IMG/VR virus record: IMGVR_UViG_3300020154_000003
Span: 62,001-126,000 of that record
Length of the DNA: 64,000 nt
Source: a virus
Direction: 5' to 3' (one strand)
The position numbers and the translations under genes are program-made. Below, piece after piece: positions 14,364 to 64,000 of this stretch (position 1 is the first letter of the stretch; every line of letters begins with the position of its first letter). The notes below the pieces were generated by a model. The model ran no database searches. It was not told where the DNA came from and saw only the letters and a list, made by a program, of their open reading frames with translations.

Positions 14364-14374
14364 AAAGTTTAATA

Positions 14375-14382
14375 ATAAATAC
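14375..14382 (-). promoter_or_regulatory. Late-type promoter motif GTATTTAT
   Basis: Coding-strand GAGTATTTATT lies 11 bases before the 262-residue gene. Confidence 0.55.
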
Positions 14383-14403
14383 TCTTTTTTTGAATAAAAG
14401 TTA

Positions 14404-16425
14404 TTAGCTGGACATTGAATTTATAATATCATCGTCTATATCCTTCAATTTTTCGTCCTCCAATTCGTTAGACTTAACCACATTTTCTACCTTATTTTCC
14501 TTATAAGCGAAGTTTTCTGGATTTGTCGCCTCATTGTTAAATGTACCATTACTGTATAATAGCTTATCAATTTCGGTGATCATAGTCCTTGCGGTCTTAT
14601 TTAACTGATCGTTTTTCTTGGCAAATTCATCCTCACTTTGCTTTGCAGCCGTGACGTTTTGTTTGCCCATCAAATCTTCTAATAATTCATCAAATGTTTT
14701 CTTTTCAGTAATAATGTTCTTTTGTGAACTTACTGATTCTTGAGTATTTCCCCCTGCTGGTGCGGCTTGACTTGCACTGCCTTGTGGCTCAGGTAAGGCA
14801 GCAGGAGTTTGCGGAGCGTTAGTTGCTCCACCTTCTGGTGGTGGATTGCTTTCAGGCTGTCCTTCACCTCCCTGTGGAGGTGGGCCACCTTGAGTCAATG
14901 CAGCATCAGGGTTTCCGTATTTCTGGTCAATGTCATCAAATACACCAGTCTTAGGGATAATAACGGCAGTATCTTGAAGTTCTTGACTAATCGCTCTTTC
15001 CATTCTCTGGTTTTTCAAATCTTCAACAATTTCTTTATCAGACCAGCCAAGGATATTTCTCTTAGCCCATGTATGTGAAGATGCTGCGATTCCTGATCCT
15101 TCGTTGCGAGTAATTTCAGTGTACAACTGAATTTTAGCAGTTAATGTTTCTGTCTTAAGCTTATCTGCTTGTGTTGAAGGATTGGTTAATGAAAGACTGA
15201 ATTCGTGTAAATCATTTTCATATCCCTTGAGGAACAAATGAATGATTGCCATTTTATTCAATTCTTGCAATAATGCTTGTTGTATTTTGTTGATTTTTTT
15301 AGCAAATCTAACATCCATCTGTGCAAGGTTTTTACCTTCACCTGCACTACCTGAGAAACCAAGGAAAGGTTTAGGGATTCCAAGACCACTAAATAAATTG
15401 TCACGCAAGTAAGCGATGTCAGCAATAGCGTCCAAGTTGGTTGCTCCGGGTAATGTTTCAATCACTGTGCTTTTGCCATCACGTACTGGTACAAATATAT
15501 CTTCGTCATTCCCTAAGATATTAAATCTGTAGTCGATTTGACCGTTGTTTTTATAAACTTGTTGTTGTTTCTTGAATTTAGTAGCAACTTTATATACGTA
15601 TGCTTCAATGTCTTTATCGTCAATGTTACCTACTTCTATTTTGAAAACTCTTTTTTCACCTGCTCTCAAAATACGATAAGTTAACATTGCATCTTCAGCC
15701 ATAACTAATTGTCTGAATACTCTTCTTATTTTATTAAGTACAGAAGAACCATACGGTAAGTGCTTGTCATCACCAAGTAGTCTGAAGTGAGCAATTTCAA
15801 ACATGTTGAATTCGTCACCAGTTACTTTATTTTTGAAAACAGTACGTGCTTTTCTGTCTTTAACTTCGTCTTTTCTTTCCATGTCGAAGTTAACTAGCTG
15901 ACGTACATAACGTATACCCTTTCCTTTTTCTCCTAGCGTGTACACAAAATTATCACCGTATTTGGCAAGATTTCTAGCCCAAAAAGGTAAATTAACATTT
16001 ACGTTTACAACACCGTAGAAAAAGTCTTCAAGAATAGTTTTAATTCTTTCCTTCTTTGAAAATATATTAAGCATTTTACCATTATCACCAATGGTAGTTG
16101 CTTCTTCTGAAATTAAATCGAGGGCTGATGCGATAAGTGGATAGTACTCCATACCTTCGTAGTCGACGTATGCAGGTATTCTATGACCTTCATACTGCAT
16201 GGCTTTTTGAAAACCGTGCTGTTGTACTTGGTAAAATTTATCAAAGATAAGTTCTCTCTGCTGAAGTTCTAATGCTGCTCGTTGAATATCTTCAGGAGTT
16301 TCAGCCTTAAGAATAATTTTCTTTTCTGGTTGTTGGTTCTGATTAGTTTGACCGCCAAACCCGAAACCATCCAAATTAAGAAATGAATTTATATCCTGAT
16401 ATATCGTTTTTTTGTTCTCAGCCAT
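14404..16425 (-). CDS. gp20: Portal protein, T4 gp20-like
   Basis: The product is 673 residues; gp20-type portals form the dodecameric ring through which DNA is packed. Seen: VPAYVDYEGMEYYPLIASALDL-like N-terminal region, DDKHLPYGSSVLNKIRRVF, and YLRDNLFSGLGIPKPFLGF in the core, which are typical of T4-family portals. Residues about 500-580 form a Gly/Pro/Gln-rich linker followed by an acidic helical tail, making it longer than T4 gp20 (524). It lies immediately downstream of the terminase. Confidence 0.9.
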   Translation of the reverse strand: MAENKKTIYQDINSFLNLDGFGFGGQTNQNQQPEKKIILKAETPEDIQRAALELQQRELIFDKFYQVQQHGFQKAMQYEGHRIPAYVDYEGMEYYPLIASALDLISEEATTIGDNGKMLNIFSKKERIKTILEDFFYGVVNVNVNLPFWARNLAKYGDNFVYTLGEKGKGIRYVRQLVNFDMERKDEVKDRKARTVFKNKVTGDEFNMFEIAHFRLLGDDKHLPYGSSVLNKIRRVFRQLVMAEDAMLTYRILRAGEKRVFKIEVGNIDDKDIEAYVYKVATKFKKQQQVYKNNGQIDYRFNILGNDEDIFVPVRDGKSTVIETLPGATNLDAIADIAYLRDNLFSGLGIPKPFLGFSGSAGEGKNLAQMDVRFAKKINKIQQALLQELNKMAIIHLFLKGYENDLHEFSLSLTNPSTQADKLKTETLTAKIQLYTEITRNEGSGIAASSHTWAKRNILGWSDKEIVEDLKNQRMERAISQELQDTAVIIPKTGVFDDIDQKYGNPDAALTQGGPPPQGGEGQPESNPPPEGGATNAPQTPAALPEPQGSASQAAPAGGNTQESVSSQKNIITEKKTFDELLEDLMGKQNVTAAKQSEDEFAKKNDQLNKTARTMITEIDKLLYSNGTFNNEATNPENFAYKENKVENVVKSNELEDEKLKDIDDDIINSMSS

Positions 16426-16494: not shown

Positions 16495-18546
16495 TTATCG
16501 GTATTTATTTCCGAAGACCCATGCGTTTGAGCCATAGGGGTTATTTCTATGAACTACATAATCATGTGAGTCTGGCATTTTAGTTTCTGCCTCTCTAATA
16601 TGCTCATTATCATTTACAACCAGTATTGCATTTAACATACTTTTAACTCTTTCTACATTATCATTGACTTTATGTAGTTCGCAGTTAATTACATATAGTG
16701 CAATCGCCAATCCCATAATCAAATCATCATGGAATGTTCGTTTATGGTCAGCAAGACGATTCTTATTTTCAACAATTACGAAGGTTTTGAATTCGTTGGT
16801 CAACCTAACCGAACGAATAACAACATCCTCCATCCTGACACATCTCTCCATTTCTTGAAGTACCAAAGGGCGATTACTACCAATCATAAATCCCGGAATT
16901 AAGTCAACCTTTTTAGTTTGACCATTACCAGCATCGCGTTCAACAGTCTTCACATAAACGTTAAGTCTGTCTCTTGATGGCTTGTGCTGGACATCGGAAT
17001 AGTGTACGTTATTATATCCGAACATTTTCAATGATTCCATTGCAGACACACCGTAACCACCACTCACGTCAATTACACAATATGCATTATTGTACTTTTG
17101 TCCATAGTAATAGGCCATTTCAGCTAATTGCTGTGGTGTTACTTTACCACAGTATTCAGCAACTTCTTCTGAAATAGTTCTTTTTCTCTTTCTCGTTTTT
17201 TTGATTCCGTTATGTAGGTATTCTTGATCGACTAATGTTTCAGTAGTTTTCAGAATCACGATAGTTGAAAAGTCTTCTCCATAACCACTGGCAACGTCAA
17301 GAGCCATAACGTATTTTGCTTCAGGAATTGGGTCTTCGAAAATGTACATGAATTTATCTGTGTACTCAGTACGAAGAGGCTGTCTTTGTTCGTTATCTTC
17401 AATACGCTTTACAAATTCCTCATTGATGAAGTTATCACCAGAACCTAAAAACGAACAAAGAATCTCTTGAGCAAGTCTTCGCATGTCACCGTTGTAACCT
17501 GCCTTTGCATTTTCAAACCAACTACTGGTTGCAGAAAATCTTTTCTTAATTAACTCATCACGAACTTCTTTTGTAAAATTGTCGTCCTTAATTCGTATTT
17601 CAGTATCTTTTCCTTCGTCCTTAACCCACTCAAGATCAATCTCACCAGTTTCTTTATTGCGTATGTATCTAGGATCGTTATACCACCACAATTCAATAGC
17701 ATTAACGTATGGTTTTTTACCTTCCGATCTAGCTACAACGGATGAGTTGAAGGTTTTATAAAAAATAGGGTCTAAACCATTTGGAGTCGAAACAAAAATT
17801 ACGCGACCGCCAGTGTTTCGTACTGCAGGGCCAGCAGATTCCCAAAACTTTTCTCCCTTCTCCGTCCACGCAGTTTCATCCCAAAATACTAGCGTAGGTG
17901 TCGGCCCTCTAAGTTTGGTCGCAGCAAAAGCTTTTACTTGACTACCATTCGAATATTTTTTGTGACCCATAGAATCTTTACCACCGACTTTAGCAAGGCT
18001 AGGTCGCACGTATGATGGACAGTTCTCAATGAAATCAATGATGTCACTCATCAACTCATCACGAGCGGTTTCAAGTTTATCCGCAATAACTGCTACGTAT
18101 CTATTTTTATTGAAAGTAATATACCACGCGATATATGCACAAGTTGTTGTTGACACACCAGCCTGTCTGTATTTGTTAGCTACATTCTCTTTGTTAGACA
18201 TGTAAGCTTTGATGAGTTCCTTTTGGAATGGGAAAAGTTTGAAAGGCACGATTGAACCACCATCTCCGACTGTTTGGTCAAATACGGTTAGATAAGTCTC
18301 AATGTAATAAACTGGATCGATACCACATCTGTAGATTTCATATGCCTGTTCATCAACATTGAGAAGATTCGCTGGTTTAGCTTCCCCACTTTTTGTGATT
18401 ACAATGGGTTGGTTAACGTGTCGTTTTCTTAACTCACTAACTAATTTTTTGAGTTCTATCTTCCTGAGTTCATCAGTAGTAAGTGGACGATCATTATTAT
18501 CCGGTATAAAGTCTAAATCATCATCATCAGTTTTTTTCTTACTCAT
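16495..18546 (-). CDS. gp17: Terminase large subunit, T4 gp17-like
   Basis: The 683-residue DNA-packaging motor and headful nuclease. The Walker A variant KYRQAGVSTTT lies near residue 140 and Walker B PTLVFWDETAW near residue 225. The RNase H-like nuclease acidic residues are in MALDVASGYGEDF (about 440), YCVIDVSGGYG (about 510) and HDDLIMGLAIA (about 630). Length is a little above T4 gp17 (610). No small-subunit gene is visible beside it. Confidence 0.94.
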   Translation of the reverse strand: MSKKKTDDDDLDFIPDNNDRPLTTDELRKIELKKLVSELRKRHVNQPIVITKSGEAKPANLLNVDEQAYEIYRCGIDPVYYIETYLTVFDQTVGDGGSIVPFKLFPFQKELIKAYMSNKENVANKYRQAGVSTTTCAYIAWYITFNKNRYVAVIADKLETARDELMSDIIDFIENCPSYVRPSLAKVGGKDSMGHKKYSNGSQVKAFAATKLRGPTPTLVFWDETAWTEKGEKFWESAGPAVRNTGGRVIFVSTPNGLDPIFYKTFNSSVVARSEGKKPYVNAIELWWYNDPRYIRNKETGEIDLEWVKDEGKDTEIRIKDDNFTKEVRDELIKKRFSATSSWFENAKAGYNGDMRRLAQEILCSFLGSGDNFINEEFVKRIEDNEQRQPLRTEYTDKFMYIFEDPIPEAKYVMALDVASGYGEDFSTIVILKTTETLVDQEYLHNGIKKTRKRKRTISEEVAEYCGKVTPQQLAEMAYYYGQKYNNAYCVIDVSGGYGVSAMESLKMFGYNNVHYSDVQHKPSRDRLNVYVKTVERDAGNGQTKKVDLIPGFMIGSNRPLVLQEMERCVRMEDVVIRSVRLTNEFKTFVIVENKNRLADHKRTFHDDLIMGLAIALYVINCELHKVNDNVERVKSMLNAILVVNDNEHIREAETKMPDSHDYVVHRNNPYGSNAWVFGNKYR

Positions 18547-27258: not shown

Positions 27259-27334
27259 TGGGGCGATGAGTAGGAGTCGAACCTACATCTGCCCGCCTCA
27301 ATGCAGGCCGTGTTACCACAACACTTCCCTCGCC
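27259..27334 (-). tRNA. tRNA-like gene with an 8-base anticodon loop
   Basis: Acceptor GCGAGGG/TCATCGC has one mismatch. It has a G at -1, C73 and an encoded CCA, which are histidine-type identity elements. The D-stem is GTGT/ACAC and the T-arm is normal. The anticodon stem GCCTG/CGGGC closes an 8-base loop CATTGAGG, and bases 8-9 are AA instead of a U8. The isotype cannot be assigned; a tRNA-His(GTG) exists separately at 27602. Confidence 0.55.
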
Positions 27335-31895: not shown

Positions 31896-31967
31896 TGTAT
31901 GTTCGTCTAGGGGTCTAGGACACTCCCTTCATCGGGGGAAACATTGGTTCGAATCCAATACATACTC
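31896..31967 (+). tRNA. tRNA-Glu-like with shortened anticodon loop
   Basis: D-arm TCGTCTAGGGGTCTAGGAC and the whole body align with bacterial tRNA-Glu. One base is missing between positions 27 and 43: stem CTCCC/GGGGG closes only TTCATC. Depending on pairing the anticodon could read TTC, TCA or CAT. Two normal Glu(TTC) tRNAs exist at 33039 and 33317. Confidence 0.5.
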
Positions 31968-48487: not shown

Positions 48488-48802
48488 ATGAATTATTTAG
48501 AAAAAGAAATAGCCCTTTTCAAAAGGAGAAAACAACTTTTGAACCAGCCAATATTGAAAGTTGTTGGGGAAGGTTGTCAAGCAATTAGCGAATTTCAATG
48601 GATTGGAAAAGTAATCGGTTTCGAAGAAGATAAGGAAAAGGGTTGGACTGTGGCAGTCATCAAAATTTTGAAACATAATCGTTCATACGGTGATGCCAGA
48701 GACGCTAAGGAGGATGAAATTTATACTTATCCAATAGCGAACAAGTATTACATGATCAATGACATTCAAAACGTTGATGGTGTATGGATACTTTACACAT
48801 AG
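48488..48802 (+). CDS. Hypothetical protein, 104 aa
   Basis: The start MNYLEKEIALFKRR is just past the previous stop. A helix then a beta-barrel-like domain. Ends with TAG, 10 bases before the ligase gene. Confidence 0.55.
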   Translation: MNYLEKEIALFKRRKQLLNQPILKVVGEGCQAISEFQWIGKVIGFEEDKEKGWTVAVIKILKHNRSYGDARDAKEDEIYTYPIANKYYMINDIQNVDGVWILYT

Positions 48803-48812
48803 AAATGCGGAT

Positions 48813-49874
48813 ATGTTACTAACTAGAGATCAATTCAGGGAAGGTGTCTTTAAAAGAGATAAATACAGATGTGTCGTGTGCTTTAATCCTGCAGTTGATG
48901 CTCACCATATCATTGAAAGAAAATTATGGGATGACGGTGGATACTATTTGGATAACGGGGTTTCTCTTTGTGAACGTTGTCACATGAAAGCAGAACAAAC
49001 GATTATTTCTTGCGATGAGTTAAGAAATTCTGTTGGTATCACAACTAATCATTTACCAGCAATATTGTTTGATCGATTGATGGATGACAACAGAATCACG
49101 AATATAGGAAAGGTAAGTTTCGATAAATGGGGTAACCTAATACTGGCAGACGGTAGCCGTAGACCGGGGCCAATGTTTAATACGGAACAGGTTCAAAAAA
49201 TCATAAAGCAAGCCAATTTATTACATCTGTTTGTGGAAGATAAATATGTAAAATATCCAAGGACGTATCACTTACCATACAGCGAAAAAGCCTCTGCAGA
49301 CGATAAAAGATTATCCAGTACTGAGCAATTCGCAGGTAAGGAAGTGGTAGCAACCATCAAACTTGATGGGGAAAACACCACTTTGTATCAAGATCATATC
49401 CATGCAAGGTCTTTGGATTCAGCACATCATCCCTCTCGCGATTGGGTTAAAGGTTTGTGGGGAAGTTTCAAACATGAAATACCTGACGGTTGGAGAATTT
49501 GTGGTGAGAATGTTTACGCACTGCACACAATACCCTACAACAACTTAGAAACATACTTCTACGTTTTTTCCATATGGGATAATACGAATACCTGCCTTTC
49601 GTGGGATGAAACGGTTGCATACTGTGAAATGCTCGGACTAAAAACAGTACCCGTAATTTATCGTGGTGATTTTGATCAAGCGAAAATACAAGCTGCTTTT
49701 CCTGCAACACACAATGGTGATCCCACTGAAGGATATGTGGTTAGACTGACCGAACGTTTTCATTACGATGAGTTTGAAAATTCGTTAGCTAAATATGTGT
49801 CAAAGTCCTTCATTATCGAAGGCGCACAACATTGGATGCAGAATGCAATAATACCAAACAAGCTTTCTTCTTAA
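48813..49874 (+). CDS. HNH nuclease fused to RNA ligase, 353 aa
   Basis: Residues 1-75 are an HNH domain: CVVCFNPAVDAHHIIERKLW then SLCERCHMKAEQ. From about 140 a nucleotidyltransferase RNA ligase follows: adenylated-Lys motif ATIKLDGENTTLY, ARSLDS, WRICGENVYA (motif III-like), EGYVVRL (motif IV) and LAKYVSKS (motif V). It probably seals broken RNA after Pnkp healing. Both halves are intact; the ATG at 48813 avoids overlap. Confidence 0.88.
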   Translation: MLLTRDQFREGVFKRDKYRCVVCFNPAVDAHHIIERKLWDDGGYYLDNGVSLCERCHMKAEQTIISCDELRNSVGITTNHLPAILFDRLMDDNRITNIGKVSFDKWGNLILADGSRRPGPMFNTEQVQKIIKQANLLHLFVEDKYVKYPRTYHLPYSEKASADDKRLSSTEQFAGKEVVATIKLDGENTTLYQDHIHARSLDSAHHPSRDWVKGLWGSFKHEIPDGWRICGENVYALHTIPYNNLETYFYVFSIWDNTNTCLSWDETVAYCEMLGLKTVPVIYRGDFDQAKIQAAFPATHNGDPTEGYVVRLTERFHYDEFENSLAKYVSKSFIIEGAQHWMQNAIIPNKLSS

Positions 49875-61539: not shown

Positions 61540-61612
61540 GTCTTAGTAGCACAATTGGCGGTGCAACGATCTCTAAAATCGGAGGATGCGGGTTCGATCC
61601 CCGCCTAAGGCA
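61540..61612 (+). tRNA. Amber suppressor tRNA(CTA)
   Basis: Acceptor GTCTTAG/CTAAGGC, T-arm GCGGG/CCCGC and D-arm are normal. The loop is CTCTAAA, giving anticodon CUA, which reads UAG. Its anticodon arm CGATCTCTAAAATCG differs from that of tRNA-Trp (57149) by one base, so it may descend from Trp. The discriminator is A, so the charged amino acid is not certain (Gln, Trp or other). Confidence 0.9.
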
Positions 61613-61613
61613 C

Positions 61614-61797
61614 AAATAATTCTCCTGCTTGAAAGCCATACAACCACGAATATGACCTATTCGCTTGACAAAGACCAGTTCTGTTCCAGCAGTTAATGGT
61701 GGCCTAGGGATAAGATGAATCCATTAGGATGGAACCTCGTAAGAGTGATAAGAATTACGTCTTATTCCAATCTGGAAGTTGGACAGGAGAATTATTT
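61614..61797 (+). ncRNA. Structured RNA, 184 nt, closed by a perfect 14-bp stem
   Basis: AAATAATTCTCCTG and CAGGAGAATTATTT are exact complements at the two ends. Inside are CCTA(G)GGAT/ATCC(AT)TAGG, GAATA-TGACC-TATTC and AAGA/TCTT hairpins. No frame. It starts 2 bases past the suppressor tRNA, so it is probably cut from the same transcript. The class is unknown. Confidence 0.6.
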
Positions 61798-61844
61798 AAA
61801 TTGTATTGTTTTTTTGAAATGTAGTATTTACTTTTACTAAAATT

Positions 61845-61866
61845 CAGACCCTTAAGGTCTGGTTTT
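61845..61866 (+). terminator. Terminator after the structured RNA
   Basis: CAGACC-CTTAA-GGTCTG followed by GTTTTG. Confidence 0.65.
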
Positions 61867-61894
61867 GAAATAATATTACATTTTCAAGAAGATA

Positions 61895-62674
61895 ATGAAA
61901 GCAAAAAAAACTAAGAAAACTGCTAAAACCAGCACAAAAAGACCCGCCAAGAAGAAGCCTACCGCAAAAGCAAAAGCCTCATCAAAGACCAAAGCGAAAG
62001 CTAAGGTTAAATCCAAATTGGATTATACACACATAATCGCAGTACTGGACAAATCCAGTTCTATGCATTCAGTAGCGAATGCTGCCATGAAAGGTTTTAA
62101 TGAATTCCTGACATCACAAAAAGCCTTAAAAGGGAAAGCCACTATGGACGTGTTATTGTTCAGTAGTGCTGATAAAATCGACTATATCTCGCAGGGTGTT
62201 GACATCAGTGAGGTTGCTGAATTAACCTCTGAGACTTATCGTCCTCAGGGCACTACAGCATTATTCGATGCAATCGTGAAAGCCACTTCAACTTACAAAC
62301 TGAAGTATGATGAATTGAAGCCTTCAAAGAGACCCGATAAGATTTTGGTAATTGCTATTACTGATGGAGAAGAAAATAGCAGCACAGAATTTCCTATAAG
62401 TAAAGTTGGTGATGTCAAAGCATTGATCACAAAACGTAAGTCGGAAAACTGGCAGTTTATGTTCTTGTGCTCGACTGAAGATGCCGTGTTAACTGGCGAA
62501 TCTCTTGGAGTTTCAAGAGGTAACACAATGCAGTTTACCAATAGCGATCTTGGTAATCAAGCCATGTACTCTGCTGTGGCATCTGCTGCGACCATGTACA
62601 GATCGACTTCACTGAGAAGTAAGAGTTTTAGCAAGGTCAGCGATAATTTGCTGGCTGAGGATGATATTTCCTAA
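61895..62674 (+). CDS. VWA-domain protein with histone H1-like tail, 259 aa
   Basis: Residues 1-42 are almost only Lys, Ala, Thr, Pro and Ser (KKTAKTSTKRPAKKK...), like H1 or Hc1 tails that bind DNA. Residues 44-235 are a von Willebrand A domain with a MIDAS: AVLDKSSSMH, QGTTALFD and AITDGEENS. A DNA-bound, metal-dependent adaptor is suggested. Ends at a strong terminator. Confidence 0.82.
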   Translation: MKAKKTKKTAKTSTKRPAKKKPTAKAKASSKTKAKAKVKSKLDYTHIIAVLDKSSSMHSVANAAMKGFNEFLTSQKALKGKATMDVLLFSSADKIDYISQGVDISEVAELTSETYRPQGTTALFDAIVKATSTYKLKYDELKPSKRPDKILVIAITDGEENSSTEFPISKVGDVKALITKRKSENWQFMFLCSTEDAVLTGESLGVSRGNTMQFTNSDLGNQAMYSAVASAATMYRSTSLRSKSFSKVSDNLLAEDDIS

Positions 62675-62683
62675 ATTTAATTA

Positions 62684-62716
62684 ATGGGTGGTATGAATAA
62701 TACCATCCATTTTTTT
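62684..62716 (+). terminator. Intrinsic terminator after the VWA gene
   Basis: ATGGGTGGTAT-GAATA-ATACCATCCAT (11 bp, one G-U) then TTTTTT. Confidence 0.88.
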
Positions 62717-62977
62717 ATGAAACGAAAGAAAGAACCAGTACCAATATTTCGAGATTACGTAGTGTTCTATGAGGTTAAGAATGATAAAAACTCTACCAAA
62801 TGGGACATGTTATGGCGAGAAACAGGCGAAAAGGCAGGTGATGTAGAATTTTTTAAAGATAAATTCGACACTTATGTTTATAATGTTTTCCCACAATTTA
62901 AGCGTTTAAGCGGGGTTTGGGTTGATCTCAGGAAACTTATAAAAGAAAAATCTGGTCACGACATTGCAAAATTCTAA
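62717..62977 (+). CDS. Hypothetical protein, 86 aa
   Basis: MKRKKEPVPIFRDYVVFYEV; the upstream in-frame ATG at 62684 lies in the terminator, so the ATG at 62717 is used. Mixed alpha/beta with Trp; no family. Confidence 0.5.
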   Translation: MKRKKEPVPIFRDYVVFYEVKNDKNSTKWDMLWRETGEKAGDVEFFKDKFDTYVYNVFPQFKRLSGVWVDLRKLIKEKSGHDIAKF

Positions 62978-62994
62978 AACATTTTTTAGATTTG
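62963..62994 (+). promoter_or_regulatory. Bacteroidota-type promoter
   Basis: ATTG, 20 bases, TAGATTTG, before the amber-containing PTH2 gene. Confidence 0.6.
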
Positions 62995-63022
62995 CACGTA
63001 TATATAGAAAACACCAAAAATC

Positions 63023-63403
63023 ATGAAAAAAGAACTGTAGATTTCCAATCCTAGCGATCTTAAACTGGTAACCATTACCAGACAAGACCTACCAATGGGC
63101 GCAATCATTGCCCAAACAGTACATTCAACAGCATCATTTGCCATCCAGTACCCTGACAAATTTCGTCATTGGGAACAAACATCAAACTACGTAGCGTGTC
63201 TAGCTGCAAAGGATGAGCAAGAACTACTCAAGTATTACGACCGATTAATAAAGGCAGGAGCCGATGTGGTATTATTCCGTGAACCCGACATGGATAACCA
63301 AGCAACATCCCTATGCTTTTACGGCACTCCTGAGTTTCGGAAAATTACAAGCAGTTTACCATTAATGTTCAAGCAGAAGAAGGAGGTGGCTATGGCAGCA
63401 TAA
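63023..63403 (+). CDS. Peptidyl-tRNA hydrolase PTH2-type, with in-frame TAG at codon 6
   Basis: Reading from the ATG at 63023 gives MKKEL, TAG (63038-63040), then ISNPSDLKLVTITRQDLPMG and IIAQTVHSTASFAI, the PTH2 pattern with a strand, DLxMG and the QxxH helix. The core strand LVTITRQDLP lies before the internal ATG at 63095, so a start there would delete part of the fold. PTH2 frees tRNA from stalled peptides. Its own promoter precedes the first ATG. The TAG is probably read by the phage suppressor tRNA. Confidence 0.75.
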
Positions 63404-63411
63404 TTTCACAT

Positions 63412-63486
63412 CCTTTGGTAGCTTAAGCTGGTTAAAGCCCATGACTGATCCTCATGGAGATGGTTGTTCGAATCGGCCCCAAAGGA
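63412..63486 (+). tRNA. tRNA-Ile(GAT), third
   Basis: Loop CTGATCC on CATGA/TCATG; acceptor CCTTTGG/CCAAAGG; T-stem GGTTG/CGGCC with two G-U pairs. Confidence 0.78.
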
Positions 63487-63493
63487 CTTAAAA

Positions 63494-63573
63494 CCTCGTG
63501 TAGCTTAGTGGTCTAAAGCAGCATACTTATAATATGCCTATCGTCTTAAACGGTTCGAATCCTACCACGAGGA
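63494..63573 (+). tRNA. tRNA-Ile(TAT) with irregular T-arm
   Basis: Acceptor CCTCGTG/CACGAGG perfect; loop CTTATAA on GCATA/TATGC reads ATA. The variable region is long and the T-stem (AACGG/CCTAC) pairs over only two bases, though the loop TTCGAAT is intact. Confidence 0.65.
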
Positions 63574-63585
63574 CTTTAAAAAAAT

Positions 63586-63658
63586 GAGAGTATGGCTCAG
63601 TGGTTAGAGCAAGGACTTCTAAACTCCTAGGTCGTGGGTTCGAATCCCACTACTCTCT
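63586..63658 (+). tRNA. Probable second amber suppressor tRNA(CTA)
   Basis: Standard numbering from the D-arm and the 5-base variable loop AGGTC puts CTA at 34-36: stem AGGAC/CTCCT, loop TTCTAAA, with a C-C mismatch at 31-39. If the closing pair is ignored, CTTCTAA could be read as Arg(TCT), so this one is less certain. Acceptor GAGAGTA/TACTCTC. Confidence 0.65.
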
Positions 63659-63677
63659 CTCAATAAAATAAAAAGTT

Positions 63678-64000
63678 ATGAAAACAATTAGAGAAACAAG
63701 TCAACCAGTAATCGATGCTCTTTTGAAGCATGTCGATCTTTGTGATGATCATTAGATACTTGAACCTTCAGCAGGCTTCGGTAATCTTGCGGATGGAATC
63801 GTAAGAGCGTGTCCTGACATAAAAGTTGATTGTGTCGAATTGAATGAACGCAACGTACAAATTCTCAAGGAGAAAGGGCATAACGTAGTTGGTCGTGACT
63901 TCTTTCACTTCAAAACAGAAAAGAAGTACTGGTACATCATCGCAGCACCAAACTTCAAAGACAATATTGATGTCGAACACATCATGAAGATGTACACACA
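63678..64000 (+). CDS. DNA methyltransferase-like gene with in-frame TAG, 3' end outside window
   Basis: MKTIRETSQPVIDALLKHVD then TAG (63753-63755) then ILEPSAGFGNLADGIV, the SAM-binding motif of N6-adenine methyltransferases, DCVELNERNVQILK and IIAAPNF (NPPF-like, altered). The TAG lies one residue before the conserved ILEPSAG strand, where homologues have a residue, so the gene only makes sense with readthrough. Partial at the right edge. Confidence 0.7.

Follow-up and report, generated by a model that had tools for sequence, protein, structure and literature searches.

A conserved stop codon near the start of a phage peptidyl-tRNA hydrolase gene that may be gated by phage-encoded suppressor tRNAs

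Why would a phage place a stop codon within the first few codons of a gene and flank that gene with tRNAs whose anticodon matches the stop? The question arises from a stretch of 64,000 nucleotides ('the window'; positions 62001-126000 of the 366,038-base phage record IMGVR_UViG_3300020154_000003, hereafter G000) from a phage with major head, portal and terminase genes of T4 type. A first-pass annotation had proposed that amber codons are read through locally in this window, in nonstructural genes beside CTA suppressor tRNAs, and our analysis supports that proposal. ARAGORN placed two CTA tRNAs exactly where the annotation had reported a clear and a probable one (Table 1), the second of which also matched Rfam RF00005 at 67 bits (L002:1587-1659). 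They lie on both sides of a PTH2-type peptidyl-tRNA hydrolase gene and, according to ARAGORN, are the only stop-anticodon tRNAs among the 54 tRNAs of the 366,038-bp record. Two tRNAs at window positions 27259-27333 and 31896-31967 have a two-base anticodon that ARAGORN could not read. Elsewhere in the window, the match of the terminase large subunit (16495-18546, minus strand) stretches across 524 aa for 330 profile positions and may thus contain an insertion, and an RNA ligase bearing an N-terminal HNH domain is encoded at 48759-49874 (plus strand).

Table 1. Suppressor tRNAs and amber-interrupted genes at the right-hand end of the window.
Feature	Position in window	Strand	Evidence
Suppressor tRNA 1 (anticodon CTA), which may decode the ambers	61540..61613	+	ARAGORN
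PTH2-type peptidyl-tRNA hydrolase gene, predicted to be read through; 126 aa with TAG as a residue	63023..63403	+	Pfam PF01981, AlphaFold2, Foldseek, homologues
In-frame TAG at codon 6 of PTH2, followed by ATT (Ile)	63038..63040	+	sequence, homologue comparison
tRNA with anticodon CTA (suppressor tRNA 2)	63586..63659	+	ARAGORN; Rfam RF00005
Methyltransferase gene interrupted by TAG at codon 26; its frame extends beyond the window as far as TGA at record 126203-126205	63678..64000	+	homologues
In-frame TAG of the methyltransferase gene; Gln or Lys in homologues	63753..63755	+	sequence, alignment

The hydrolase frame opens with ATG at 63023, runs through TAG at 63038 and closes with TAA at 63403. 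Its PTH2 domain begins directly after the TAG (PF01981; score 31.3 bits, curated cut-off 23), and AlphaFold2 predicted a PTH2 fold for the read-through protein (pLDDT 88.5), with 2zv3, 1wn2, 3erj and 1q7s as the best PDB matches in Foldseek (2zv3: E 4.2e-7, TM about 0.7). The phage protein shares domain and fold with archaeal and eukaryotic Pth2 (PF01981), but its gene opens with a conserved in-frame stop, and its hydrolase activity is a prediction.

In code-15 phages, which include crAss-like and Lak phages, TAG is translated as an amino acid with the help of a phage CTA tRNA (PMC7886860, PMC9523058). The likeness to these phages drawn by the annotation held for the CTA tRNAs beside apparently read TAGs and broke down at the level of the genome. 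Of three code-15 hallmarks, a phage-encoded CTA suppressor tRNA was present here, whereas in-frame TAGs across many genes and rarity or absence of TAG as a terminator were not found. TAG terminated 16 of 223 long ORFs in the whole 366-kb record, and a coding-potential scan of this record for interrupted frames, as the annotation had suggested, returned TAG junctions that mostly represent neighbouring genes. We rejected genome-wide recoding of the crAss/Lak type: the rest of the genome uses TAG as an ordinary terminator, and the scan mostly returned adjacent genes. It is likewise very improbable that an ordinary code-15-style reassignment happened to fall on these genes. The CTA tRNAs would fit such a reassignment, as would a second TAG within the PTH2 gene of one large phage (LR756501, L112), but TAG is a normal terminator also in G009, G017, G039, G040, G002 and the phage pT24, opening TAG lengthened coding only slightly at most tested loci, and the PTH2 stop is confined to codon 2-10 of one gene. 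A CTA tRNA reading TAG would thus be common to both systems; here, however, one gene and one mini-ORF would be locked near their starts while TAG terminates genome-wide.

Related huge phages were located via their major head protein and then searched for PTH2, and each homologue found in them carried a TAG soon after an in-frame ATG. The same layout recurred in distant phages: in metagenomic ones 462-735 kb long, in the cultured Tenacibaculum phage pT24 and in cultured mycobacteriophages (Bixzunavirus and Myrnavirus). Additional contigs from both groups showed it as well. Merging the loci and de-duplicating them at 95% identity left 38 non-redundant loci with a median pairwise identity of 46% (minimum 19%). 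All 38 opened with an in-frame ATG or GTG and reached a stop at codon 2-10 (most commonly codon 3), which was TAG in 37 and TAA in one; an Ile or Val codon (ATT, ATA, GTT, GTA or GTG) and then the domain followed. These loci, together with the position of the domain, bear out the claim that the PTH2 gene needs its TAG at codon 6 to be read, and sequence comparison indicates that the stop is conserved as a feature of this one gene in phages whose hosts belong to different phyla. Its recurrence in 38 of 38 loci goes far beyond chance. In a scan across genomes for further genes interrupted by stops, antisense frames dominated, and PTH2 was outstanding among the matches listed. One query against bacterial genomes returned no relative, and such a stop is absent from the divergent PTH2-like genes of XacN1, RAS14, AsFcp_2, CC2 and A4.

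Truncated copies resembling the 5' end of PTH2 stand just upstream of the full gene in three records (G040:C1:50335, minus strand; G002:C1:159093, plus strand; G039:C1:38953, minus strand). In the clearest cases they consist of ATG..TAG and about 10-15 PTH2 residues, and they continue in frame into another ORF, similar in all three, that possibly encodes a homing endonuclease.

Homologues of the methyltransferase, the second interrupted gene of the window, align across its TAG without a gap, as expected if this codon too must be read, which the annotation had also claimed. No relative was found in 22 sister-phage records, and we therefore rejected this amber as a conserved feature. It is probably a tolerated amber, seen only here, the simplest reading being that a single-base amber could be tolerated since suppression was available. 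Pseudogenes or sequencing errors might be invoked instead: the methyltransferase TAG occurs in this phage alone, and one base change could have created it because the homologues carry Gln or Lys. For PTH2, such a reading is refuted by the 38 non-redundant loci, from separate assemblies as well as cultured phages, that have the stop in common, and by conservation of the remaining frame. As an account of the locus, it has a negligible probability.

The ATG-x-TAG could also be a short upstream ORF, with PTH2 initiating just past the TAG or internally, for example by re-initiation. An Ile or Val codon follows the stop in 38 of 38 loci; in the mycobacteriophages it is a GTG, the annotated PTH2 start, so that initiation at this codon is possible. 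Outside the mycobacteriophages, however, the next codon is ATT, ATA, GTT or GTA, and GTT and GTA are not known to serve as start codons. Several homologues offer their first ATG, GTG or TTG only at codon 38-82 past the stop, and at all 38 loci the upstream start shares the frame of PTH2. None of the PTH2 subfamily starts at a downstream ATG, a possibility that the annotation had raised against its own proposal. A promoter-like TTGACA...TANNNT precedes the upstream ATG or GTG of the mycobacteriophages by a few bases, which puts that codon in a leaderless-like position and favours it as the start; a simple promoter scan of Cane17 did not flag this promoter-like region. Re-initiation, moreover, would need no match between stop and anticodon, yet the sole TAA case has one. 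We consider a start after the stop unlikely, whereas these comparisons strongly support PTH2 read-through, and at least two groups of cultured phages probably carry a wrongly annotated PTH2 start.

A matching suppressor tRNA was present within about 4 kb of PTH2 in 31 of the 38 non-redundant loci. ARAGORN detected it in 23 of these; in pT24, for instance, one of three ARAGORN tRNAs has a CTA anticodon and lies about 2.5 kb from PTH2. The other eight were found by reading the sequence by eye because their D region is atypical. Six of the eight were measured, with the acceptor stem paired at 7/7 positions, the anticodon stem at 4-5 of 5 and an anticodon loop of YTCTAAA. The Rfam tRNA model did not match the atypical elements that were scanned, and the eight therefore stay candidates. 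At the remaining 7 of 38 loci (L111, L113, L115, L141, L150, L163 and L164), no CTA element was found in the examined sequence; L141 and L150 sit close to contig ends. A pattern search for remote CTA tRNAs returned no convincing one.

Equating ARAGORN-negative loci with loci that lack a CTA tRNA proved wrong, as several hold CTA tRNAs with atypical D regions. Such tRNA-like genes, often with an AACTTAA/GCTTAA-type linker and missed by ARAGORN, lie upstream of PTH2 in L143, L145, L146, L165, L166, L167, L168, L171 and L174, and L169 and L172 have shorter CTA tRNA-like elements there without a clear D arm. Other tRNA-like genes carry insertions of 10-60 nt in the anticodon region (L243:14601-14730 and 14369-14455, minus strand; L145:3383-3466; L167:2988-3091).

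Which isoacceptor a suppressor tRNA resembles differs between phages, and naming the inserted amino acid from tRNA similarity failed for this reason. The diversity suggests that the match between anticodon and stop matters more than the residue inserted. The 'tRNA-Pyl' label given by ARAGORN denotes the CTA anticodon only, not a pyrrolysine system, and a search for the PylS synthetase gave no PF01409 match in seven phage records.

Most of these phages also have, near PTH2, a mini-ORF of 9-12 codons that is itself interrupted by a stop. It comprises an ATG, usually three codons, a TAG, usually Ile or Val, a few codons, Arg-x-Pro and a stop (MKxx-TAG-[I/V]xx-R-x-P-stop). In G000 it reads MKNL-stop-SISRPP-stop and lies at record position 126665, just beyond the window; others include MKHT-stop-VARAP-stop, MKDK-stop-IKIRSP-stop and MS-stop-SRPP-stop. 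Scans of whole records covered eight genomes of this phage group, and each held exactly one such mini-ORF. Its position is conserved, usually about 90-180 nt ahead of an uncharacterised gene that often begins MET. In four phages of another lineage, a Pro-Pro-stop version precedes PTH2 itself, and its CCT-CCT-TAA pairs with GGAG/GGAGG upstream of PTH2 as one arm of a strong hairpin (z -3.6 to -5.4). The leaders matched no known Rfam family, a simple terminator scan at L163 detected no terminator, and the broad G035 pattern for the mini-ORF returned mostly noise and one possible candidate, MNA-stop-NITRGP-stop.

The mini-ORF resembles the RAPP arrest peptides ApdA, ApdP and ApcA (PMC10951233, PMC12992588) in being a short ORF with a C-terminal Arg-x-Pro in front of a gene, which it may regulate as a leader. 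It differs from them in its internal amber and in that its R-x-P meets a stop codon instead of Pro or Gly; the RAPP motif proper (R-A/G-P-P or RAPG, with Pro or Gly as the A-site residue) does not occur in it. Because the third residue of R-A-P-P/G occupies the P site during RAPP-type arrest (PMC12992588), a ribosome stall at R-x-P-stop is plausible, by analogy with a motif that is not identical.

The mini-ORF also bears on the match between stop and anticodon. The sole PTH2 gene with TAA (L154, record G031) has a tRNA with anticodon TTA about 0.9 kb upstream, the only stop-anticodon tRNA in this 41-kb record, and the G031 mini-ORF likewise uses TAA where others use TAG. This covariation is strong but single, because it comes from one lineage and from a single 41-kb fragment. 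An exception to the match is G002, whose mini-ORF has TAA though only a CTA tRNA was found there. In the same record, an RF-1/ArfB-like GGQ gene (G002:C1:169155-169310) contains an in-frame TAA shortly past its start codon.

Comparison across the loci shows a conserved frame, a conserved stop, an anticodon match, a mini-ORF and the parallel stop change of that mini-ORF. To judge from sequence, the phage's own suppressor tRNA is likely to gate translation of both PTH2 and the mini-ORF. Production of PTH2 would require the tRNA that matches its stop (CTA where the stop is TAG, TTA for the single TAA gene) to be both present and charged. Without this tRNA, ribosomes would finish after a peptide of 1-9 residues; with it, PTH2 would build up and could recycle peptidyl-tRNAs arising from suppression and stalling. 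The mini-ORF would probably sense the same suppression, stall at its Pro-stop and regulate the gene behind it, and the overall logic would be that of a coherent feed-forward switch. We infer a regulatory purpose from the arrangement of stop and tRNA, and likewise the charging of the tRNA, the actual read-through, its timing and the stalling. XacN1 counts against the gate: despite its two CTA tRNAs, its divergent PTH2 begins at an ordinary ATG.

The lambda bar minigenes are short ORFs whose peptidyl-tRNA needs recycling by Pth, and the ATG, 0-8 codons and stop that open the PTH2 gene resemble such ORFs. Peptidyl-tRNA released from short ORFs by early drop-off must be recycled by Pth (PMC10192219). 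The suppressor tRNA might accordingly serve mainly elsewhere, for example in lowering host UAG termination, the PTH2 amber being a sensor or autoregulator of the balance between RF1 and peptidyl-tRNA and the ATG-x-TAG a minigene that drops off peptidyl-tRNA. This explanation, which we regard as possible but rather doubtful, has the same read-through step as gating by the suppressor tRNA and differs from it in purpose.

We found no published description of an amber-gated PTH2 in the open-access literature. Suppressor tRNAs have been reported in Xanthomonas phage XacN1 (PMC5852040) and predicted in Stenotrophomonas phage Summit (PMC9022506), in both cases with targets stated as not identified, and a 2026 jumbo-phage survey discusses them in the context of whole-genome recoding (PMC13037316). 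Like XacN1, the phages studied here include large tRNA-rich phages with CTA tRNAs, and Summit shares a predicted suppressor tRNA; the recurrent target found here is missing from XacN1, where the divergent PTH2 carries no amber. A stretch of 2.5 kb that lies shortly beyond the two suppressor tRNAs of XacN1 (L257:18562-21050) has no annotated genes and contains tRNA-like pieces and a probable tmRNA. An engineered feed-forward loop in E. coli keeps a nonsense-codon gene silent unless a suppressor tRNA is supplied (PMC7969014). A nonsense-locked gene that needs a suppressor tRNA is common to both, but the loop proposed here would be natural, and its target belongs to a tRNA-recycling enzyme family.

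On balance, we favour a natural, widely conserved nonsense-gated circuit in which a suppressor tRNA, an anticodon-matched PTH2 and an amber-gated R-x-P-stop stalling mini-ORF would have been kept together across phages of unrelated hosts, with an amber-to-ochre co-switch in one lineage. PTH2 offers a recurrent, testable target for phage suppressor tRNAs that have repeatedly been reported without one (PMC5852040, PMC9022506), and cultured phages carry this target, among them many mycobacteriophages propagated on M. smegmatis. The layout spans distantly related tailed phages, from huge phages of Bacteroidota to mycobacteriophages, and the stop and the suppressor tRNA that usually adjoins it resemble a genetic lock with its key, here of natural origin. 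If confirmed, stop codon and suppressor tRNA together would constitute a natural on-switch, parallel to the synthetic circuit built in E. coli (PMC7969014).
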